Below are positions 4,505 to 44,092 of a DNA stretch of 64,000 nucleotides, one piece after another. The position numbers were made by a program, and so were the translations under genes. Location: IMG/VR virus record IMGVR_UViG_3300042398_001385, positions 62,001 through 126,000 of that record; one strand, given 5' to 3'. Every line of letters begins with the position of its first letter. Position 1 is the stretch's first letter. The notes under the pieces were generated by a model. That model did no database searches. It worked only from the letters and a program-made list of their open reading frames with translations, and was not told the origin of the DNA. The DNA comes from a virus.

Positions 4505-6277
<1,773 letters not shown>

Positions 6278-11184: not shown

Positions 11185-15102
<3,918 letters not shown>

Positions 15103-20170: not shown

Positions 20171-21814
20171 TTAAATAGCAGGTTCTGCTCCTGTTGCTTC
20201 GCCTCCAGTAGCTTCAGCTTCTGCTCCAGTAGCTCCAGCTTCTGCTCCAGTAGCTCCAGTAGCCCCAGCTTTACCTTCTTCCTCGGATTTTTTAACGTAG
20301 GATTTATTTAACTGTATATCCTCATAGTTAAGATCTAACCATCTCTCTATCATAAAATCTTGATCAAAAAATTGAACCTCTTCTTCGTTTACTGTTTCTT
20401 TTATTTCTCCCATTGCAGTAATGAAATCAATTTTTTTGATCAGTTGTTCTATTTCTCTAGATTCACCAAATAAATTATCACTTTCAAATTTAACACCTAT
20501 TTGACTTCTAAATTCAGCATCGTTTTTAAGATCCGGAAATTCTAAGCACATTTGTATCCATAGAGGTTTTACTATAATCTCTTGGAATATAGATCTCAAT
20601 CTTGTTATAAATTTAGCAAATCTAACCTCATCCCTTTCTGCTCCTTCCGCCCCTGTTTTAAAAGTATTATTTGAGCCCATACCAAATCTTGAAGAGAATC
20701 TGTTATAAGGTATTTTGGAATCTTGTCTTAATTTATTATAGAAATAAACAACCGAGTCCATTATATTTAAATTAGGACCTTGAGCATTAAGTGTTTCTAC
20801 TTTTACTGATTCGCCTCCTTGCTGAGGGAAAAGATAGTTTTTATAGAATTGAAGATCAGGTCTTCCGTTTATAGCTAATTCTCCTGAGCTTGTATCTAGT
20901 TTAATATCCTCTTTATATACGGACATAAGTTCTCCAAGTGTCTCTTTAGCCTTTTGAGGAGCTTTACTTCCAATAGGAACTGTCATTTTAATCCTATACT
21001 GAGCATTCATAACATTCCATATTATTCTGGAGTGTTCCATAATCTTTAATAAGTTATAAGACCTTATTAATCTTTCAGTGTAAGATACTCTTGAAACAAC
21101 GTTGGCTTTAGCATATGAAATATAAATAACCTGAGCGTCTAATAATTTTCTTTGTCTAACAGTTTCTCCGTAATACTGCCACCATATAGTTTCTCTTGTT
21201 CCGTCAGGCTTTTTTTCGATAGCTGGAGTTAAACTAACAGCATCCAATTCTTTAAAACCAACTATTTCTTTACCGTCGTTTGAATATATTATCTCGAATG
21301 CTAAAAAACCTTCTACGATTAGTTGTCTAAAGTATTGCCATCCGGTTAATCCATTTGCAAAATTGTGGAGAACATATAGTTTTCTGAAATTCTTCCTCAT
21401 GGATTTTATAACATCATCCTTTAGATCCATATTCATTAAAGCTGGATGACAGAAAAAATTCTTCTCATCATATACTACTGCTTCGTCACATATAGTATCT
21501 AAAATGTATTCTATCTCAGCATTTAAAGCAAAGGTTCTTAGAAAATCCCTTTTGAATGGATAATCTTTATCAAAATATGCTATGTACTTTCTGTTTGATG
21601 TGTCTTGGGCTGCTATACTATAGATAAAGTCTTCGTCGCTATCAGTAAATCCAAATCTTTCTCTCATGCTGGCTTCAGATGCACCTATAGCCATGGAGTC
21701 TTGAATAACCATATCCTTATACTCCATCCCAAAAGATCCAAGACCACTAATAGTTTTTAATATCCTAGAGATATTCGGATTTATCTTTCCTAAATTATCT
21801 AAAAAGCCCGCCAT
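20171..21814 (-). CDS. 20: portal protein (gp20), copy 2
   Basis: A 547-residue portal vertex protein close in length to T4 gp20 (524). It contains the conserved EYILDTICDEAVVYD, an R(V/L)SYTERLIRSYN block and a long C-terminal helical region. It aligns along its whole length with the next gene upstream (21818-23437), which is clearly a paralogue. The C-terminus is a collagen-like tail (GATGATGAE and similar, about 35 residues). The portal is the dodecameric ring through which DNA is packaged and ejected, and it nucleates the prohead. Confidence 0.85.
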   Translation of the reverse strand: MAGFLDNLGKINPNISRILKTISGLGSFGMEYKDMVIQDSMAIGASEASMRERFGFTDSDEDFIYSIAAQDTSNRKYIAYFDKDYPFKRDFLRTFALNAEIEYILDTICDEAVVYDEKNFFCHPALMNMDLKDDVIKSMRKNFRKLYVLHNFANGLTGWQYFRQLIVEGFLAFEIIYSNDGKEIVGFKELDAVSLTPAIEKKPDGTRETIWWQYYGETVRQRKLLDAQVIYISYAKANVVSRVSYTERLIRSYNLLKIMEHSRIIWNVMNAQYRIKMTVPIGSKAPQKAKETLGELMSVYKEDIKLDTSSGELAINGRPDLQFYKNYLFPQQGGESVKVETLNAQGPNLNIMDSVVYFYNKLRQDSKIPYNRFSSRFGMGSNNTFKTGAEGAERDEVRFAKFITRLRSIFQEIIVKPLWIQMCLEFPDLKNDAEFRSQIGVKFESDNLFGESREIEQLIKKIDFITAMGEIKETVNEEEVQFFDQDFMIERWLDLNYEDIQLNKSYVKKSEEEGKAGATGATGAEAGATGAEAEATGGEATGAEPAI

Positions 21815-21817
21815 ATT

Positions 21818-23437
21818 TTATATTGTAATTTCTCCTCCTTCAGATCCAGCTTCACCTCCTGTTGCTCCTTCAGCTCCTGTTGCTCCTGCTTCAGCTGCTG
21901 CCGCTTCTTTCTTTTTCTCTGCTGCTTTTTCTTTGAATTTTTTATTTGTAACTAAATCCTGTCCTTTCACTCCTAAAAATCTATCAACTAAAAAGTCCAT
22001 ATTAAAATATTTTTTACCCTCTGAGTTCATTAGGGCGGATATTTTTATAACCTGGTCTTTTCTAGCAGCTAATACCTCCATTTCTTTTGCTTCCCTAAAT
22101 ATATTTTCTTTTACATAATCTAAACCAAATTCGGATTTAATTATGTAATCTTTCTTAAGATGCGGAAAGTCTAAGCAGAATTGTACCCATAGTGGCTTCA
22201 TTAATATCTCTTGATATATTGACCTTAATCTGTTAATAAATTTAGCAAATCTTATTTCCTCCTGATCCAATCCTTCTGCTGTAAAAGTAATTGTTCCTTC
22301 AGATCCTGCTTCTTCTCTACCAAATCTAGTTGCTGGTATTTTAGAGTCCATTCTTAATTTATTTGCAAAATATTTAAGAACTGTTGTATCCGAAAATGCA
22401 GTTGCGTCTCCTCCCCCAGGAAGTGGCTGTATATCAGGAGTTCCATTAGGAGATGATGGCATTAAGTAATTTTTAAAGAATTGTATCTTTGGTTTTCCGT
22501 CGATTGTTAATTCTCCACTGCTATTATCTAATCTTATATCTTCTTTATAGATTGACATTAGTTCACCTAATGTTTGTTTTGCTTTTTGTGGTGATCTAGT
22601 ACCTATAGGAACTGTCATTGCCATCCTATATGAAGAGTTCATTACGTTCCAGATGATTCTTGTGTGCTCCATTATTCTTAGGAGATTAAATGACCGTATC
22701 ATTCTTTCACAGTAACTAACTCTTGAAGATGTTCCACCTCCCTTAGCATAACTTATATAAATTATCTGGGAGTCATATAGTTTTCTAGTCAAAGATGGGT
22801 TATCTGGATATTGTATCCATATATCAATAAAAGATCCATCTGGCTGTGCCTCTACTGTTGGTATTAGTGACCATGGATCCAATTCTTTGAATCCAACAAT
22901 ATTCTTACCTTTTTTATCAAATACGATTTCAAAAGCTAGAATACCATCAACTAGAAATTTTCTGAATAAATGCCAAGCTGATATATCTTGATTAAATCCA
23001 AAAAGATTATATACCTCTTTATACCTCTTTTGTACTTTTTCGTAAGTTTCCTCATTAACATCATCATGTTGCATGAAAGAGAAATAAGCCCAAAAGTTTT
23101 TGTCATCATATACTATTGATTCGTCGCATATAGTATCAAGAATAAATTCTATTTCTGGATTCTGAGAAAATCCTTGTAGATAATGTCTTTTGTTTTTATA
23201 GTCCTTATCAAAATAAGCTATGTATTGTTTAGTGGTAGTATCTGCTCTTCTTAATCCAAAAAGAAAAGATTCATCCTTTATCCCTCCCTTTTGTAGAAAT
23301 TGAGCTTCTGTTATACCTACTGCTTGAGAATTTTTAACTACAAGATCTTCGTAGGCCATACCGAAACTACCCACTTTCTTTATACTATCTAAAATAGAAC
23401 TAAAGAATGATTTTTTATCGTCAGTAAATCCAGCCAT
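21818..23437 (-). CDS. 20: portal protein (gp20), copy 1
   Basis: A 539-residue portal paralogue, 3 nt upstream of the second copy. The same landmarks appear: KQYIAYFDKDY, EFILDTICDESIVYD, RVSYCERMIRSFN and MTVPIGTRSPQKAKQTLGEL. It also ends in a Gly-X-Y-like tail (EAGATGAEGATGGEAG). The two copies differ throughout, so the duplication is old. T4 has one portal gene. They could form a mixed ring, or one could act at another site such as a neck or an assembly step. Confidence 0.85.
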   Translation of the reverse strand: MAGFTDDKKSFFSSILDSIKKVGSFGMAYEDLVVKNSQAVGITEAQFLQKGGIKDESFLFGLRRADTTTKQYIAYFDKDYKNKRHYLQGFSQNPEIEFILDTICDESIVYDDKNFWAYFSFMQHDDVNEETYEKVQKRYKEVYNLFGFNQDISAWHLFRKFLVDGILAFEIVFDKKGKNIVGFKELDPWSLIPTVEAQPDGSFIDIWIQYPDNPSLTRKLYDSQIIYISYAKGGGTSSRVSYCERMIRSFNLLRIMEHTRIIWNVMNSSYRMAMTVPIGTRSPQKAKQTLGELMSIYKEDIRLDNSSGELTIDGKPKIQFFKNYLMPSSPNGTPDIQPLPGGGDATAFSDTTVLKYFANKLRMDSKIPATRFGREEAGSEGTITFTAEGLDQEEIRFAKFINRLRSIYQEILMKPLWVQFCLDFPHLKKDYIIKSEFGLDYVKENIFREAKEMEVLAARKDQVIKISALMNSEGKKYFNMDFLVDRFLGVKGQDLVTNKKFKEKAAEKKKEAAAAEAGATGAEGATGGEAGSEGGEITI

Positions 23438-24033
23438 TAGACTTGTGAGTTTTTATTATATATCTCATTTAACTGGGTCCCTTCAATAGACCTAGTATTT
23501 AGATATACTATTCTAGTCCAATCTTCCAAAGGAATTTCCACTACATCACGAACTTTTTTTAAATCCCAAGCTCTATAAGCATGTTTATAAGGTATTCCTT
23601 TTAAAATTATATCCATAGTTTGGTAGTCAGTTTTAAGAGGAGCTTGTCCTCTTCCTTCCCCCATTTCTATTTTTTTTAAGTTTCCTTCTATCTGATCCTT
23701 GAATACGCTTTGTACTCTTTCAAAGAATGCTATTCTAAATATCGGTGAAATTAAAATTAGATCAAGACCTTTAAAAAGGTTCTTTTTTTCGTAATTATCG
23801 TATTCAGTAAAAAAAATAACTGGTCTTTTGTTTATAAAAGGTTTCCCTTTTTCTAATTGATCATTGTATTGAAAAGAATAAACTTTCCCAGATAAAAAAT
23901 TTAAAGGGCTAAATTCAGATTTTTTATTCACATAATTATTTGCCCAATACGTAAATGATTCTTCAGGTAATGAGGTTAGACCTGAGACTGAAAGTTTGTA
24001 ATCATTAAATTGTTGTTTAAAGGAAGAAATCAT
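23437..24033 (-). CDS. T4-type structural protein of unknown role
   Basis: A 198-residue protein located between gp4 and the portals. It contains GKVYSFQYND, a KRPVIFF strand, a LFKGLDLILISP segment and IFRIAFFERV, a pattern I associate with small T4-like virion proteins whose role I cannot name. It is in the place where T4 has 53 or 2 near gene 4, but the sequence does not let me assign either. It overlaps gp4 by 4 nt and the portal by 1 nt, so the three genes are coupled. Confidence 0.6.
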   Translation of the reverse strand: MISSFKQQFNDYKLSVSGLTSLPEESFTYWANNYVNKKSEFSPLNFLSGKVYSFQYNDQLEKGKPFINKRPVIFFTEYDNYEKKNLFKGLDLILISPIFRIAFFERVQSVFKDQIEGNLKKIEMGEGRGQAPLKTDYQTMDIILKGIPYKHAYRAWDLKKVRDVVEIPLEDWTRIVYLNTRSIEGTQLNEIYNKNSQV

Positions 24034-24515
24034 CTCATTATAAAGCTTTCATTTATAGCACCGAATTTATATCCTCTAGATTCAGCAAATCTAGTTGCTG
24101 CTTCAAATTTAGCTCTATTGGTTATCCATATTTTAAGTTTCTCATTATAGGATCTTATCTTTTTTTCAGTTAAATTTCCTACAGGTTCTTTGGGCCTTTT
24201 ATTAAGTGCATATTGATCCTCGGGTTTTATTTCTATAAACCAATTTTCAAATACATCTCCCTTTTGTACTTGTATATAGTAATCTACAAAATACTTATGT
24301 TCCTTTTTGTCTATTGGAGACCAATATGGTATATCTGTTGGTTCTGAGCTCCATTTGGTTATATTGGGATTTATATCACAATATTGACAAAATTTTCTTT
24401 CCCATGAGCTTCGGTATATTATATTGTTAATATCCCCAATGTACTTTAATGGATTAACTGGATTATATTTTCCAGATTTCCACTTTCCATTGGGCTTTAA
24501 CTTTTTTATATCCAC
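24030..24515 (-). CDS. 4: head completion nuclease (gp4)
   Basis: The 161-residue protein has the gp4 core: YRSSWERKFCQYCD, NITKWSSEPTDIPYWSP and KYFVDYYI with a later FIEIKP. These are the spaced Glu, Asp and E-x-K residues of the endonuclease-like head completion family. T4 gp4 (150 residues) is needed to finish DNA-filled heads before tail joining. The start is GTG at 24515, overlapping nothing but 2 nt past the sigma gene's stop. Confidence 0.85.
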   Translation of the reverse strand: MDIKKLKPNGKWKSGKYNPVNPLKYIGDINNIIYRSSWERKFCQYCDINPNITKWSSEPTDIPYWSPIDKKEHKYFVDYYIQVQKGDVFENWFIEIKPEDQYALNKRPKEPVGNLTEKKIRSYNEKLKIWITNRAKFEAATRFAESRGYKFGAINESFIMR

Positions 24516-27545: not shown

Positions 27546-30431
<2,886 letters not shown>

Positions 30432-30444
30432 TTAATTTATTTAT

Positions 30445-30999
30445 TTAAAAAATTATAAAGTCGCCATCCTCGTTAACTAAGATGTTTCCATTTTGATCTG
30501 TAAGATATTCTGTAATTTCGCTATCTACTAATCCCTCTCCTATTATAACCTCGACATTAACTCTAACTGAATGAGGATTATATAATAGCATACCTCCTTG
30601 TTCAAAATAAGGAGATTCTATATCGCTTCCATTAGGATCTAAATCCCATCCACCAAATATATAGTTGCTATTCCCTGTTAATATGGTTAGATTTGCCATA
30701 GGCAAATAGTTACCGTTGTATAGTATATTTATAAATCTGTTGGAAACGGGTAATGATGTTGGGTATGTTGCCTTAATCATTACAAAGTCAACATTATTTA
30801 ATCCTTCGGCACTAAGTAGTAAAGATGAGTTTCCATAAACACATCCACTGAATGATGAGTAGTTATTAAGTACTATATCAGTGTCACAAAAGCTTATTTC
30901 TCTAACAACTTTAGTCCCATTGACTATTTGAAGATTGCATCTTTGAAAGATAGCACCTTCAAATTGTATTGTATCACATACTAGAGGTGGTGTAGCCAT
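30445..30999 (-). CDS. small virion-type protein, paralogue A
   Basis: The 184-residue protein shares a pattern with the next gene upstream: F-x-CNL near the start, ISFCD, a region ending LTILTG, GWDLDPNG, and GGMLLYNP near the end. The two are distant paralogues. They sit just upstream of the 961-residue fibre, so they may be fibre collars or assembly partners. No family is recognised. The start overlaps the upstream stop by one base. Confidence 0.65.
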   Translation of the reverse strand: MATPPLVCDTIQFEGAIFQRCNLQIVNGTKVVREISFCDTDIVLNNYSSFSGCVYGNSSLLLSAEGLNNVDFVMIKATYPTSLPVSNRFINILYNGNYLPMANLTILTGNSNYIFGGWDLDPNGSDIESPYFEQGGMLLYNPHSVRVNVEVIIGEGLVDSEITEYLTDQNGNILVNEDGDFIIF

Positions 31000-31583
31000 T
31001 AGTTAAAAACAAATATTTCTAATTCCATACTATATGTATCGTTAATGTTACTAAACATAATACCACCAAACGAGAGATTCGGAGAGGCGGGAGTTGGATA
31101 TATGTGTGGACTAAAACCAGGATTCGGAGGATTATTGGAATAATAGCTAAGATCCCATCCCTGCCAAGGTATTTCTGGTTCAGTTCTACCTGTTAAAATC
31201 ATCAGGCTTCTTATTGGATATGTTTGTCCTTTATATTCCCATGTTAGAAATCTTTGTTCCTCTGGACAATTCTTTTCATATTTAACCTTAACAACTATCA
31301 TCTGAACTTCTCCTTGAGCTTGTCCAATTTCTGGAGCATTAAGTGTATAGCTAATATTTGGTCCTAGTGTTATGCTTTTTTTAAGAGATCCTCCACATCC
31401 TCCCATCTCAGAGCTTCCTAAAGATTCCAATTTAAAATCACAGAGAGATACACTAGAAAGTATATTTGCACCCTCTTTTACATCCAAATTACACGACTGA
31501 AAATATACCCTCTTATAAACACCAGGATTACAATCCAAGTTTTCTATATACTTTGGATCGGTTGTATAAACTTTTTTGATCAT
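30999..31583 (-). CDS. small virion-type protein, paralogue B
   Basis: The 194-residue protein has FQSCNLDV, VSLCDF, SLMILTGR, WQGWDLSYY and FGGIMFSN at positions matching paralogue A, plus a Gly/Cys-rich stretch (EMGGCGGS). It is coupled to the membrane protein gene by a 4-nt overlap. A virion decoration or fibre-associated role fits the neighbourhood but is not shown. Confidence 0.65.
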   Translation of the reverse strand: MIKKVYTTDPKYIENLDCNPGVYKRVYFQSCNLDVKEGANILSSVSLCDFKLESLGSSEMGGCGGSLKKSITLGPNISYTLNAPEIGQAQGEVQMIVVKVKYEKNCPEEQRFLTWEYKGQTYPIRSLMILTGRTEPEIPWQGWDLSYYSNNPPNPGFSPHIYPTPASPNLSFGGIMFSNINDTYSMELEIFVFN

Positions 31584-39486: not shown

Positions 39487-40065
39487 TTAGTTAAAAATGT
39501 CCTCGAAATAGTCAGCTCTAAAAGATAAAGCTATCTTATAAGGTGTTGTACCGTTAGTGTAATCAAGATCTAAAGCTTTTATTTGATCTACTGGGAAGCA
39601 ATTAATTAGTTTAACTCTTCTAAATACATCACCTTGCTTATTAAATACTGATATTAAAATATAAGTTCCTCCTGCATAAGTAGATTTTATACCAGTAGCA
39701 CCAGTTAAAGGATTGTAAATAAGATCTGACCACTGTCTAAGTGTTTTAAACACATAGTTACTGTTATTATCATTAAGGTTAGTCTCAAATTCAATTCTTA
39801 CTTTAACTCCTGTATCATCAACTGCACCTGCAGCATATCTTCTTTTAGAGAACTTATATCTTTGTTCTGCTATACCTGGGTTTTTATCAACTGTTAAACC
39901 AGCAACAGATAAAACGTTTTCCACTAACAAGCTTCTTCCGTTGTTTCCTTGCTCTAATGCAACTCCAGCGGGTGGTTGAATAATAACCTCAAACTGATTA
40001 AGGTATACTGGTTCGTATAATTGTACCGCTGCTTTTGACGATGTAAAATGTGGTAATCCTGCCAT
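39487..40065 (-). CDS. 19: tail tube protein (gp19), copy 2
   Basis: The 192-residue protein has the gp19 layout: an N-terminal PVYLNQFEVII strand, a YKFSKRRYA block, FETLRQWSDLIYNPLTGA-like and FRRVKLINCFPVDQIKALDLDY. It aligns over its length with copy 1, with which it shares the MAGLPH start. In T4, gp19 hexamers stack to form the inner tail tube through which DNA passes. One copy probably has a special position or forms a mixed tube. Confidence 0.85.
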   Translation of the reverse strand: MAGLPHFTSSKAAVQLYEPVYLNQFEVIIQPPAGVALEQGNNGRSLLVENVLSVAGLTVDKNPGIAEQRYKFSKRRYAAGAVDDTGVKVRIEFETNLNDNNSNYVFKTLRQWSDLIYNPLTGATGIKSTYAGGTYILISVFNKQGDVFRRVKLINCFPVDQIKALDLDYTNGTTPYKIALSFRADYFEDIFN

Positions 40066-40076
40066 TTTTTAATTAT

Positions 40077-40649
40077 TTATATAAATATATCATCGAAATA
40101 GTCAACTGCCCATTGCATAGTCAATTTGTAAATTGATGTTTGTGTATAGTTTAGACCCATTTCAGTGATAGGAGACATAGGGAAACAATCTCTAAGATTA
40201 ATTTTTCTGAAAATATCACCTTGCTTGTTAAAAACATTTATTAATATATTTCCTGTGTAATCCTTTTTAAGACCCATTGCACCCGTTAAAGGATTATAAA
40301 TAAGATCAGACCATTGACGAAGAACTTTAAATACGTACATAGAATTGCTGTCATTAAGGTTAACCTCAAATTCTATATCAACATCTAAACCAGTTCTTTG
40401 AGGAGCTGCACCAGCGTAATATCTTTTAGCAAATTTATATTGCTGTGTGATTTCCGATGGTGTCTGATCTACCTGTAATCCAGAAACTCTAGTTACTTGC
40501 TCAAGCAATATATTAGAACTCTGAGGGTTTCCCTGTGGAGTAGATATACCTGTTGGCGGAGTAATCTGTACTTCGAATTGGTTAAGAAAAACCGGTTCGT
40601 ATTTATTAACTGACGCCTTGGAGCTTGTATAATGTGGTAATCCTGCCAT
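40077..40649 (-). CDS. 19: tail tube protein (gp19), copy 1
   Basis: The 190-residue paralogue has the same landmarks (PVFLNQFEVQI, FAKRYYAGA, LRQWSDLIYNPLTGAMG, FRKINLRDCFP). It follows the sheath gene as in T4 and precedes copy 2 by 11 nt. An AATATATA octamer lies 10 nt before its ATG. Which copy makes most of the tube cannot be told from sequence. Confidence 0.85.
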   Translation of the reverse strand: MAGLPHYTSSKASVNKYEPVFLNQFEVQITPPTGISTPQGNPQSSNILLEQVTRVSGLQVDQTPSEITQQYKFAKRYYAGAAPQRTGLDVDIEFEVNLNDSNSMYVFKVLRQWSDLIYNPLTGAMGLKKDYTGNILINVFNKQGDIFRKINLRDCFPMSPITEMGLNYTQTSIYKLTMQWAVDYFDDIFI

Positions 40650-40693: not shown

Positions 40694-43600
40694 TTAACTA
40701 AATTGGATGAATCCTCCAGAAGCTATACCTCCTGTTCTAGTAACCGTCATTCTATTAATGAATTTATGAATACCTCTTGCTGGTTCGATTATAACATCGA
40801 TGATTCCGATGTTCTGATCTATAATAGCAGGTGTATTATTAGAAGAATCCATAATAGTTAAGAAGTTATAAATACCACCTACTGATCTTACTCCTGATAA
40901 GTAGTTATCAACTAGAGTTTTAATCTCAAGTCTTACGTTATCTTCGTTGAAATCAAATACGTAGTTTGATAGTATATCCTCTACTGCACTTTCTACAGTA
41001 ATTAATAAGTCTCTTACGTGTAGGTTATTAAATGCAGAGTTTGTTCTTTGGTAGCTTGTTTGGTTACCATATATTACTATACCAACACCTCTTTTACGAA
41101 TGATAGGGTTAATTCCGAAAGGCTCTAAGAATTCTCTATCTTGAATATCAAAATCATATTCAAGACCAACTAGATTACCAGCTGATATAATACCTCTCTT
41201 AAGACCTGCCACGATAGAATAAGGTTCTCCAGTAATGAACTTACGTATAAAGTTGTTAGAAACGTAAGGAGATGGCGGAACGTTTAGATTCTTATTGTTT
41301 TCTCTGATTGTTAAGAAAGGAGCAAAGAATCCTGAGAATTTAGCACCTAGATCTTCATCAGGTAAAGAGAAAGTAAATGAAGGATTTAAACTTAAATTAC
41401 CTCCATCTGCAATATATCTAGCTTGTAAAAGTGGAGCTGGATCTGTTGCAGTAGGTGCAGAAGTAAATCTAGGATCAATAGATTCAGAGAACTTCTTCAT
41501 TGAAGGTAAGTTACAAATTGCTAAACATTTTTGTCTGTTTTTAGCAAGTTTAGTAAGTTGGTATTTACAGTTTGGCTGTATACCTCCGTCAAATGTATCT
41601 ACGATGTATCTGAATGTTATTACGTCAGTATCAGCTAATGTTCTAGCAAGATTTGTATTGTATAAAACATCTAGAATCTCATTCATTCTTGTATCTGTTC
41701 CGTTAGGCATAGAAGCAGCTTTAATATCAGAACCAGGAAGATAAGTAAAGTTGAACGTTTTAACAAATTCTTGGATATTCTTAAACTTCCAAACTCTTGT
41801 TGTAGTACCAGGATAAAGTTTAATAGGTCTTTCAGTTTTAACCTGTACTGTGTAAAGTCCAGGAGAAGACGCAGAAGCTACTGTTTTAACCTCCAATACT
41901 CTTGTTAATCTTGATTGTAGATTTTCAGTCAAAGGATTATCATATATCTGAACATCCGTTGATACTAATAGATCTCCAACTTTTATTTTAGAAGCTGTTG
42001 CTTCAGCAGTACTTAATTCTATAATATTAGGTTGTAACTGTGTTATGATGTCTACGAAATCACTAATATTACCAGCAGTTGAAACTATGTTAAAGCTTTC
42101 TCCTGATGCTTGGTTAGCTCCTATAGGTAAAGAACTAATATAAGTAGAATCCCAAGTAGCAATAGATTCAGGGGTTGATAATGTATCATCAGCATAAGCT
42201 CGGCAAACTAGGATATTGTATCCGTCTCTATCTACATTTACTTCGAATTTTAAATATTGTAATAAAGTACCTGTATCATCTTTCCAGTCAATGTCGCCAT
42301 CGCCTATATTCCCTTTAACCCAGTCTCTATACATAGCAGAGTTCTCGTAAGCTAAATAGCTATCCAATCCTACTGGAATATCTGGTGAGAAGTATACGTC
42401 ATCATTATCAAAGTAATCAGGATTACCTATTTGGTAAGCTGAAACTGAGCTCTTATTTGTTATATCATAAGGTTCAACATATGTTGTAGATGCAGTAGAA
42501 CCAATTAGTGGGTGGTTAAGCCTCAATCTCAACTGTTGCTTAAGTCCAACAGGTAAAGTGTTATTTGTTATAAATTTATTCTCTACTACTCTTAATTTAA
42601 CAAGATCACCCTCATAGAATCCTAAATATCCAGGAGTTGGAAGATTGGAAGTAACTTTACCAACTACCCATTTTACTGCTGGTGCATTGCTAGAAGTATC
42701 TAGGAAACTTTCTAGTGTTGTTATTTGATCGTCATGTAATGTTGGAGACGTAAATAATGTATCTAGATAAATTGCTCCACCATCTCTAGCAGTAGGATTA
42801 TAAGTATCCCATAATGTTGTAGGGATACCTGCATCACCAGTTGTATTGTATAAAATATCCTCTACAAGAGTACCAGTTTCAGGAAGAATATCCATACCAG
42901 GACCAGGAGAAACAGCATCCTGTAACTCAGTTCCTCCAGTAGAACCTGCTAAATTCTTATAGTAAGTATAATCAGCAAATAAATTTTGACTATAAGATAA
43001 GAAATTAAGGTTCTTAGGAATAGCTGTGATATCTGCATCAGGACCTATTTCGTCTACTATATGGTGACCAACTAAGTCAAAAACTGATGAGTTATCTAAT
43101 AGATCGTCTAAAGCTTCCTCATTAACAGCACAGAATATACCAGTTGTAGCTGTTTGATTATTAATTAGCGTCTGGATGTATCTTAATGTACCGTTTTGGT
43201 CTGTAAAGTTAGGTATAATTGTACCAGTAGTGGTTAGAACTATATTAACTCCATTAAGGGATAAGAAATTATCTATTTGAGATTTAATAAACCCTTTAGA
43301 TGTAAAATATTGACTGTAAACTGGGTCGTTAGCTAAAGCTTGATAATCCGTCCAGTTTCCACTTACAACTATAACATCTACAAACCAATCTGAAAGATAA
43401 TCATACTGATTCATGTAAGATGGAACGTTATCCGATCCAAAATATTCTCTAGCTGTAATATCAAATCCTTTTAAAGGGAATTTAGAATCTAGAGATTTTC
43501 TTACTATGATACTTACGGGGTTTTGCCCAAGATTAACTAAGCTAAATAATTTTCTAGAATCTGGTTGAGATCCAGAATTATCCTCAGTTGCTAAGAAATA

Positions 43601-44092
43601 TGTCGTATCTGGGAACCAAAATTTCTCCTTATTGTAGTATGAAGATAATAATTTATCCTGTTTTGTTAGTGGATCTGAGTACCCTCCTGTCGCATTAGCT
43701 CCGTTTTGCTCCTCAGTGTCCATAGAGAAAGCTCTATATCTAGCTACATCAGCTCCTGCAGAATATTCAGGATCTCCATTTTCATCAACAGAATTATTTA
43801 ATAATCTTAGATTTAGTGCAAAGATAGGTCCGCTCTGAAGACATACTAAAGAAGATCTGTGGAAAAATGATCCTTTTTTCTCTAAAGCCTTATCTATACC
43901 GCCAAATACAGATTGGAATGTCGTGATATCTGGACAATAAACCGGGGTATTGAAGTTACCAATATTAGAATAACCAACTACCAATCTAATCGTAGAAGGA
44001 TTTATAATAATGTTTTCACTAGCATCAAATTCTAAAGTATAAACCCCAGATGCTTTAAATTGGGATAAATCAAGTTTGACTTGTCTTGCCAT
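40694..44092 (-). CDS. 18: tail sheath protein (gp18), enlarged
   Basis: At 1132 residues this is far longer than T4 gp18 (659). The N-terminal 100 residues (VVGYSNIGNFNTPVYCPDI) and the C-terminal 200 residues (FLTIMDSSNNTPAIIDQNIGI then IEPARGIHKFINRMTV) fit the sheath core that contacts the tube and neighbours. The middle is expanded by extra beta-rich domains that probably face outwards. The sheath contracts to drive the tube through the host envelope. A GATATATA octamer lies 52 nt upstream. Confidence 0.85.
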   Translation of the reverse strand: MARQVKLDLSQFKASGVYTLEFDASENIIINPSTIRLVVGYSNIGNFNTPVYCPDITTFQSVFGGIDKALEKKGSFFHRSSLVCLQSGPIFALNLRLLNNSVDENGDPEYSAGADVARYRAFSMDTEEQNGANATGGYSDPLTKQDKLLSSYYNKEKFWFPDTTYFLATEDNSGSQPDSRKLFSLVNLGQNPVSIIVRKSLDSKFPLKGFDITAREYFGSDNVPSYMNQYDYLSDWFVDVIVVSGNWTDYQALANDPVYSQYFTSKGFIKSQIDNFLSLNGVNIVLTTTGTIIPNFTDQNGTLRYIQTLINNQTATTGIFCAVNEEALDDLLDNSSVFDLVGHHIVDEIGPDADITAIPKNLNFLSYSQNLFADYTYYKNLAGSTGGTELQDAVSPGPGMDILPETGTLVEDILYNTTGDAGIPTTLWDTYNPTARDGGAIYLDTLFTSPTLHDDQITTLESFLDTSSNAPAVKWVVGKVTSNLPTPGYLGFYEGDLVKLRVVENKFITNNTLPVGLKQQLRLRLNHPLIGSTASTTYVEPYDITNKSSVSAYQIGNPDYFDNDDVYFSPDIPVGLDSYLAYENSAMYRDWVKGNIGDGDIDWKDDTGTLLQYLKFEVNVDRDGYNILVCRAYADDTLSTPESIATWDSTYISSLPIGANQASGESFNIVSTAGNISDFVDIITQLQPNIIELSTAEATASKIKVGDLLVSTDVQIYDNPLTENLQSRLTRVLEVKTVASASSPGLYTVQVKTERPIKLYPGTTTRVWKFKNIQEFVKTFNFTYLPGSDIKAASMPNGTDTRMNEILDVLYNTNLARTLADTDVITFRYIVDTFDGGIQPNCKYQLTKLAKNRQKCLAICNLPSMKKFSESIDPRFTSAPTATDPAPLLQARYIADGGNLSLNPSFTFSLPDEDLGAKFSGFFAPFLTIRENNKNLNVPPSPYVSNNFIRKFITGEPYSIVAGLKRGIISAGNLVGLEYDFDIQDREFLEPFGINPIIRKRGVGIVIYGNQTSYQRTNSAFNNLHVRDLLITVESAVEDILSNYVFDFNEDNVRLEIKTLVDNYLSGVRSVGGIYNFLTIMDSSNNTPAIIDQNIGIIDVIIEPARGIHKFINRMTVTRTGGIASGGFIQFS

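Follow-up and report, generated by a model that had tools for sequence, protein, structure and literature searches.

Two tandem paralogous portal genes in a clade of T4-type phages and the mixed portal ring that they may build

We analysed a window of 64,000 nucleotides (bases 62001-126000 of the 153,314-base IMG/VR virus record IMGVR_UViG_3300042398_001385), in which positions 20171-23437 are exactly filled by two adjacent minus-strand open reading frames, the upstream copy A and the downstream copy B (Table 1). Both encode full-length gp20-type portal proteins, which are 48% identical across 510 residues, in agreement with the tandem paralogous portals that an earlier note had proposed for this interval. 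The TAA stop codon of A is followed by 3 nt and then by the start of B, and the stop codon of the gp2-like gene overlaps the start of A in the sequence TAATG. From upstream to downstream, the gene order is sigma factor, gp4-like, gp2-like, A and B, so that the pair sits within a string of head genes. A and B are the only gp20 matches in the 153-kb record, which contains one gp23-type major capsid gene, and the window also carries large terminase, tail sheath and tube genes. The tail sheath protein (40694-44092, minus) has 1132 residues, compared with 659 in T4 gp18, and only its C-terminal part matches known sheaths well. Long proteins with GxTGATG collagen-like repeats, probably fibres, are encoded at 4505-6277, 11185-15093 and 27546-30431 (minus), and both portals of the window have similar GATG runs in their C-terminal tails.

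Table 1. Portal, head and tail tube genes and portal loops in the window
Feature	Position	Strand	Description	Matches or alignment
Portal copy A (P0002)	21818..23437	minus	upstream gene, 539 aa	PF07230, PHROG 213, T4 gp20 6uzc, AF2 model
Portal copy B (P0001)	20171..21814	minus	downstream gene, 547 aa	PF07230, PHROG 213, T4 gp20 6uzc
T4 gp2-like DNA end protector	23437..24033	minus	directly upstream of A	PHROG 429 E 1.6e-9
gp4-like head completion/closure protein	24030..24515	minus		PHROG 218 E 2.3e-44
A channel loop	22385..22423	minus	A residues 339-351	T4 gp20 350-359
B channel loop	20759..20791	minus	B residues 342-352	
A tunnel loop	22262..22342	minus	A residues 366-392	T4 374-398
B tunnel loop	20633..20716	minus	B residues 367-394	
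Tail tube paralogue C	39487..40065	minus		PHROG 32623 and tail tube PHROGs
Tail tube paralogue D	40077..40649	minus		PHROG 45 tail tube E 6.4e-11

Both copies match the Pfam profile PF07230, Portal_T4 (B, E 1.5e-59; A, E 5.1e-60), over profile positions 9-431 and 9-429 of 433; their scores of 202.4 and 203.9 bits exceed the curated cut-off of 22.9 about ninefold. The matches to PHROG 213, "portal protein", extend across nearly the whole profile, and the solved T4 portal (6uzc/3ja7) was matched by sequence with E values of 1.6e-18 for B and 8.2e-15 for A. In the alignment with T4 gp20, wing, stem, clip, tunnel loop and crown are all present in this order in both proteins; no portal domain has been lost from either, and the docking helix and the wing are kept in both. 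The Pfam, PHROG and T4 gp20 alignments thus bear out the full-length gp20 landmarks described previously for the two genes. The AF2 model of A has a pTM of 0.48 and is weak in the clip and stem; a fold search with it is supportive but of low confidence, T4 gp20 chains making up the best 13 PDB matches (TM ~0.45, E 1.3e-17 to 2.4e-13). The one-gene rule of the T4-type portal family, which is no sequence criterion for it, is broken here by two intact genes.

Using A, B and one divergent A as queries, we retrieved from IMG/VR 168 loci of a tandem-portal clade, 157 of which contain both genes; each of the remaining 11 has one copy and is cut by a contig end at the expected site of the other. In part, the loci are overlapping pieces of the same contig, and removal of identical pairs left 62 distinct pairs, the least similar being about 70% identical to the window copies. 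A and B are 2-11 nt apart in all 62, the stop codon of A is TAA in 61, and loss of either copy was not seen among these pairs or the intact loci. The sole broken copy seen is a copy A that a stop codon divides into two in-frame pieces (locus L051, 1527-3161), through either sequencing error or decay. Since the pair recurs across dozens of separate assemblies, a split gene or an assembly artefact is ruled out. A read-through fusion of A and B is not a conserved feature either, because the two genes are out of frame in 18 of the 62 pairs (in frame in 44). From the spacing, A and B are almost certainly carried on one mRNA.

Outside this clade, no phage with two full portals was found among the 2,036 INPHARED records with a gp20 match (query B). 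Only two records, both of one 735-kb phage, gave gp20 matches at two places, and a second portal in this phage (LR756501) is ruled out, as the second match is a 101-aa fragment. This stand-alone fragment (LR756501.1, 15166-15351; locus L143) resembles the C-terminal wing of gp20 and lies far from the full portal gene of this phage. Our search of the open-access literature revealed no T4-type phage described as having paired portal genes. The expectation that such a pair would be new for this group therefore holds as far as the databases reach.

In the portal tree, A, B and A+B each form one clade with 100/100 support, the branching order within A, where well supported, is mirrored by that within B, and the stem branches leading to A and B are of near equal length (0.61 and 0.59). 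The nearest single-portal phages that we found are the uncultured LR756500 (462 kb) and its relatives, whose portals are 43-45% identical to both copies and have the same upstream neighbours as those of the tandem-portal clade. A single portal is present in 93 of 93 outgroup loci (the LR756500 group, Lak, the 636-735-kb phages, PAU and PTm1), 60 of which have more than 1.7 kb on both sides. A and B are the product of one tandem duplication that occurred in place on the stem of the clade, and they have been inherited jointly ever since, without loss or visible exchange. Because all pairs descend from this one duplication, the pair counts are not independent events. Over 44 comparisons, A has a dN/dS of 0.018 and B one of 0.025, indicating strong purifying selection on both (dN/dS ~0.02). 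Together with the equal stem branches and the retention of both genes in all intact loci, this supports the view of the earlier note that neither is a decayed copy. Its statement that the two differ throughout was wrong in detail, as the differences are concentrated in particular parts of the protein.

Domain boundaries in T4 gp20, as given by Sun and others (PMC4493910), were transferred by remote alignment; the differences among A, B and single portals are independent of T4 numbering. Within one phage, the identity between A and B reaches 85% in stem helix 1 and 81% in the docking helix of the clip (T4 291-312). It falls to ~50% in the wing, to 36% in the tunnel loop and to 23% in the segment of the inner clip and channel loop, even though sequences of one copy type are 77-83% identical there. 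Copy-type-specific sites cluster at T4 331-357, in 12 of 29 columns versus 41 of 566 (p 9e-8; p 3e-5 on 14 representatives). With the 14 representatives and strict 99% conservation, p is 0.02 and the scan is not significant, and the clustering reaches significance when the threshold is set at 70-92%.

In 63 of 63 A sequences, the channel loop is 13 residues long with a net charge of -2, and in 63 of 63 B sequences it is 11 residues long with a net charge of 0; in single portals, it has 11 residues and a charge of -3 to -1 (n=25). The tunnel loop has a net charge of -2 or -1 in all 63 A sequences and of +2 or +3 in all 63 B sequences, single portals ranging from -2 to +1. A and B do not overlap in loop length or charge. 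B retains the old channel-loop length and motif, and the basic tunnel loop of B and the two-residue channel-loop insertion of A are new features. Among 18 copy-specific sites that could be polarised, B keeps the ancestral residue at 11 and A at 4. The last five residues of A (window 21821-21835) are mostly [DE][EG]F[TK]L across 62 relatives and are hydrophobic, like the ends of single portals; this peptide, possibly a docking peptide, is missing from most B copies. We also considered per-site opposite charges as a sign of contact between A and B, and rejected them: they occur at four A/B columns, which is not above the 2-5 found between other similarly distant portal clades, so that any argument from charge is based on the totals per loop.

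Two strong paralogue pairs and one weak pair emerged when ~124 kb of the record, made up of the window and bases 2001-62000, was compared with itself. The strong pairs are the portals and the adjacent tail tube genes C and D, which are 59% identical. The weak pair (30445-30999 and 30999-31583, minus; 27% identity) is uncharacterised and adjoins a long collagen-like repeat protein. All 14 tandem-portal genomes in which the region is complete carry the tail tube pair, the fifteenth, G006, being cut inside the pair; all 16 single-portal records with a match have one tail tube gene. Copy C evolves faster than D, and the tail tube tree places the duplication no more precisely than at the clade's base or close to it, because the topology with D as one clade and C as its sister is narrowly rejected (p-AU 0.036). 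The gene content thus shows that both proteins lining the DNA path were doubled in the tandem-portal lineage. The doubling of tube and portal in the same clade is one coincidence, or one branch of history, and not fourteen events.

We propose, with a probability of roughly 0.55, that after one tandem duplication both copies are working subunits, made from one mRNA, that co-assemble as a single mixed 12-mer. An ancestral single gp20-type gene would have been duplicated in tandem, and A and B would be co-translated and enter one dodecamer, perhaps alternating as A6B6. Two features point this way: A and B differ most in the lining of the DNA channel, which makes a mixed ring probable, and entry into the same ring is to be expected of close paralogues with near-unchanged stem and docking surfaces that are encoded by adjacent, coupled genes. 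As the outer clip helix and the stem are the same in A and B, the motor and the neck would meet the ring as before. The loops lining the channel would have split into two types: in A, the channel and tunnel loops are both acidic and the channel loop is longer, and in B, the channel loop keeps its old short form and the tunnel loop is basic. In the T4 ring, adjacent subunits are in contact through their tunnel loops, which help to set the 12-mer (PMC4493910). Given acidic loops in A and basic ones in B, neighbouring tunnel loops could pair, which may yield two kinds of gate around the DNA. AlphaFold modelling of the A-B read-through fusion as a pseudo-dimer gave a pTM of 0.28, probably on account of a too shallow alignment. 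In T4, the portal ring meets a 12-mer of gp13 and a 6-mer of gp14 (PMC12270204). An A6B6 ring would be six-fold, not twelve-fold, and so would match the six-fold neck and tail. Tentatively, and with considerable doubt, the whole DNA conduit might be heteromeric, with an alternating A6B6 portal joined to a tail tube of two paralogues.

The earlier note had offered a mixed ring, a special second ring and stage-specific use as readings of the pair. The mixed ring fits best, by inference, and stage-specific use fits poorly because of the 2-11 nt spacing in every distinct pair and the almost certainly shared mRNA. Alternatively, A and B might form two separate homododecamers, an all-A or an all-B portal starting each procapsid, with two kinds of virion or a main and a minor form as the outcome. 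This would suit two proteins that each keep every portal domain and the docking helix and are each self-consistent within their own clade. However, paralogues with near-identical stems and clip helices that come from one mRNA would be expected to mix, no insulating feature is seen in the sequence, and an all-B ring would, from the loop charges, bear about +36 on its tunnel loops; we consider separate rings fairly unlikely. A second stacked ring is one form of a division of labour in which one copy is the vertex portal and the other serves as that ring, as an assembly starter or as a chaperone-like partner. The single-portal-like hydrophobic C-terminal peptide, found in A and mostly not in B, and the old channel loop kept by B could both reflect split duties, but the helix that docks to the motor and neck and the wing are present in both copies and neither has lost a domain, so that we judge this to be unlikely.

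Avs4-type bacterial sensors recognise portal or tail tube proteins. Sensors of the DSR2 type also recognise such proteins (PMC10981675). Portal and tail tube are both among the few virion parts known to be sensed by defence systems, and an extra copy could act as a decoy for such sensors or simply boost the portal supply. Yet the 12 subunits per virion call for little protein, a copy kept for dosage would not have diverged to 48% identity and acquired fixed loop differences, and a decoy would not be expected to show the low dN/dS and the invariant loop length and charge seen here, all of which makes dosage or escape from immunity very improbable. A drift into mutual dependence without gain, as proposed for the fungal V-ATPase ring, would give a mixed ring because each copy lost what the other kept. 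The retention of ancestral residues at 11 of the 18 polarised sites by B and at four by A, and the equal branch lengths, are compatible with such drift; the basic tunnel loop of B and the channel-loop insertion of A are gains, not losses, and we hold this explanation to be quite improbable.

No relative of the portal pair was found in GTDB genomes, where we looked for a host. The cultured or assigned relatives infect Prevotella, Tenacibaculum and Chryseobacterium, and on this basis the host of the tandem-portal clade is probably, as a guess, a member of the Bacteroidota. The clade is probably a freshwater one, judging from the IMG datasets and from related lake phages. Its identity with the bS21-phage clades of freshwater Bacteroidetes (PMC9723584) is unsupported, as no S21 gene was found in the records tested.

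T4 gp20 (PF07230; PDB 3ja7, 6uzc, 9mkb) has the same domain order, docking helix, stem and tunnel loop position as A and B, but it is encoded by one gene and forms a homododecamer, whereas the tandem-portal clade has two diverged genes, with a longer channel loop in one and opposite tunnel-loop charges. The LR756500 group likewise has one portal and one tail tube gene, both of which are doubled in the tandem-portal clade. In known T4 phages, the portal is a single 12-mer per capsid, and to our knowledge it consists of twelve identical subunits in the solved phage structures. T4 itself has a duplicated ring-forming head protein with divided labour, the paralogues gp23 and gp24, which form the capsid hexamer and the vertex pentamer; these occupy different places in the shell, whereas A and B would both occupy the single portal vertex. 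A duplicated ring subunit with two obligate paralogues in one ring is found in the fungal V-ATPase c-ring, an unrelated protein, for which the mixed ring is proven, whereas that of A and B is our inference.

The portal, the ring by which DNA passes into and out of the virus head, is among the most conserved machines of tailed viruses, and a mixed portal ring, if true, would be new for T4-type phages. The loop differences between A and B are fixed and so lead to clear predictions for in vitro tests on the two proteins once expressed. A stable two-gene portal would provide a natural experiment on whether portal loops grip the DNA or merely line it, and would bear on the junction of a twelve-fold ring with a six-fold tail and on how ring machines shift from one subunit type to two.
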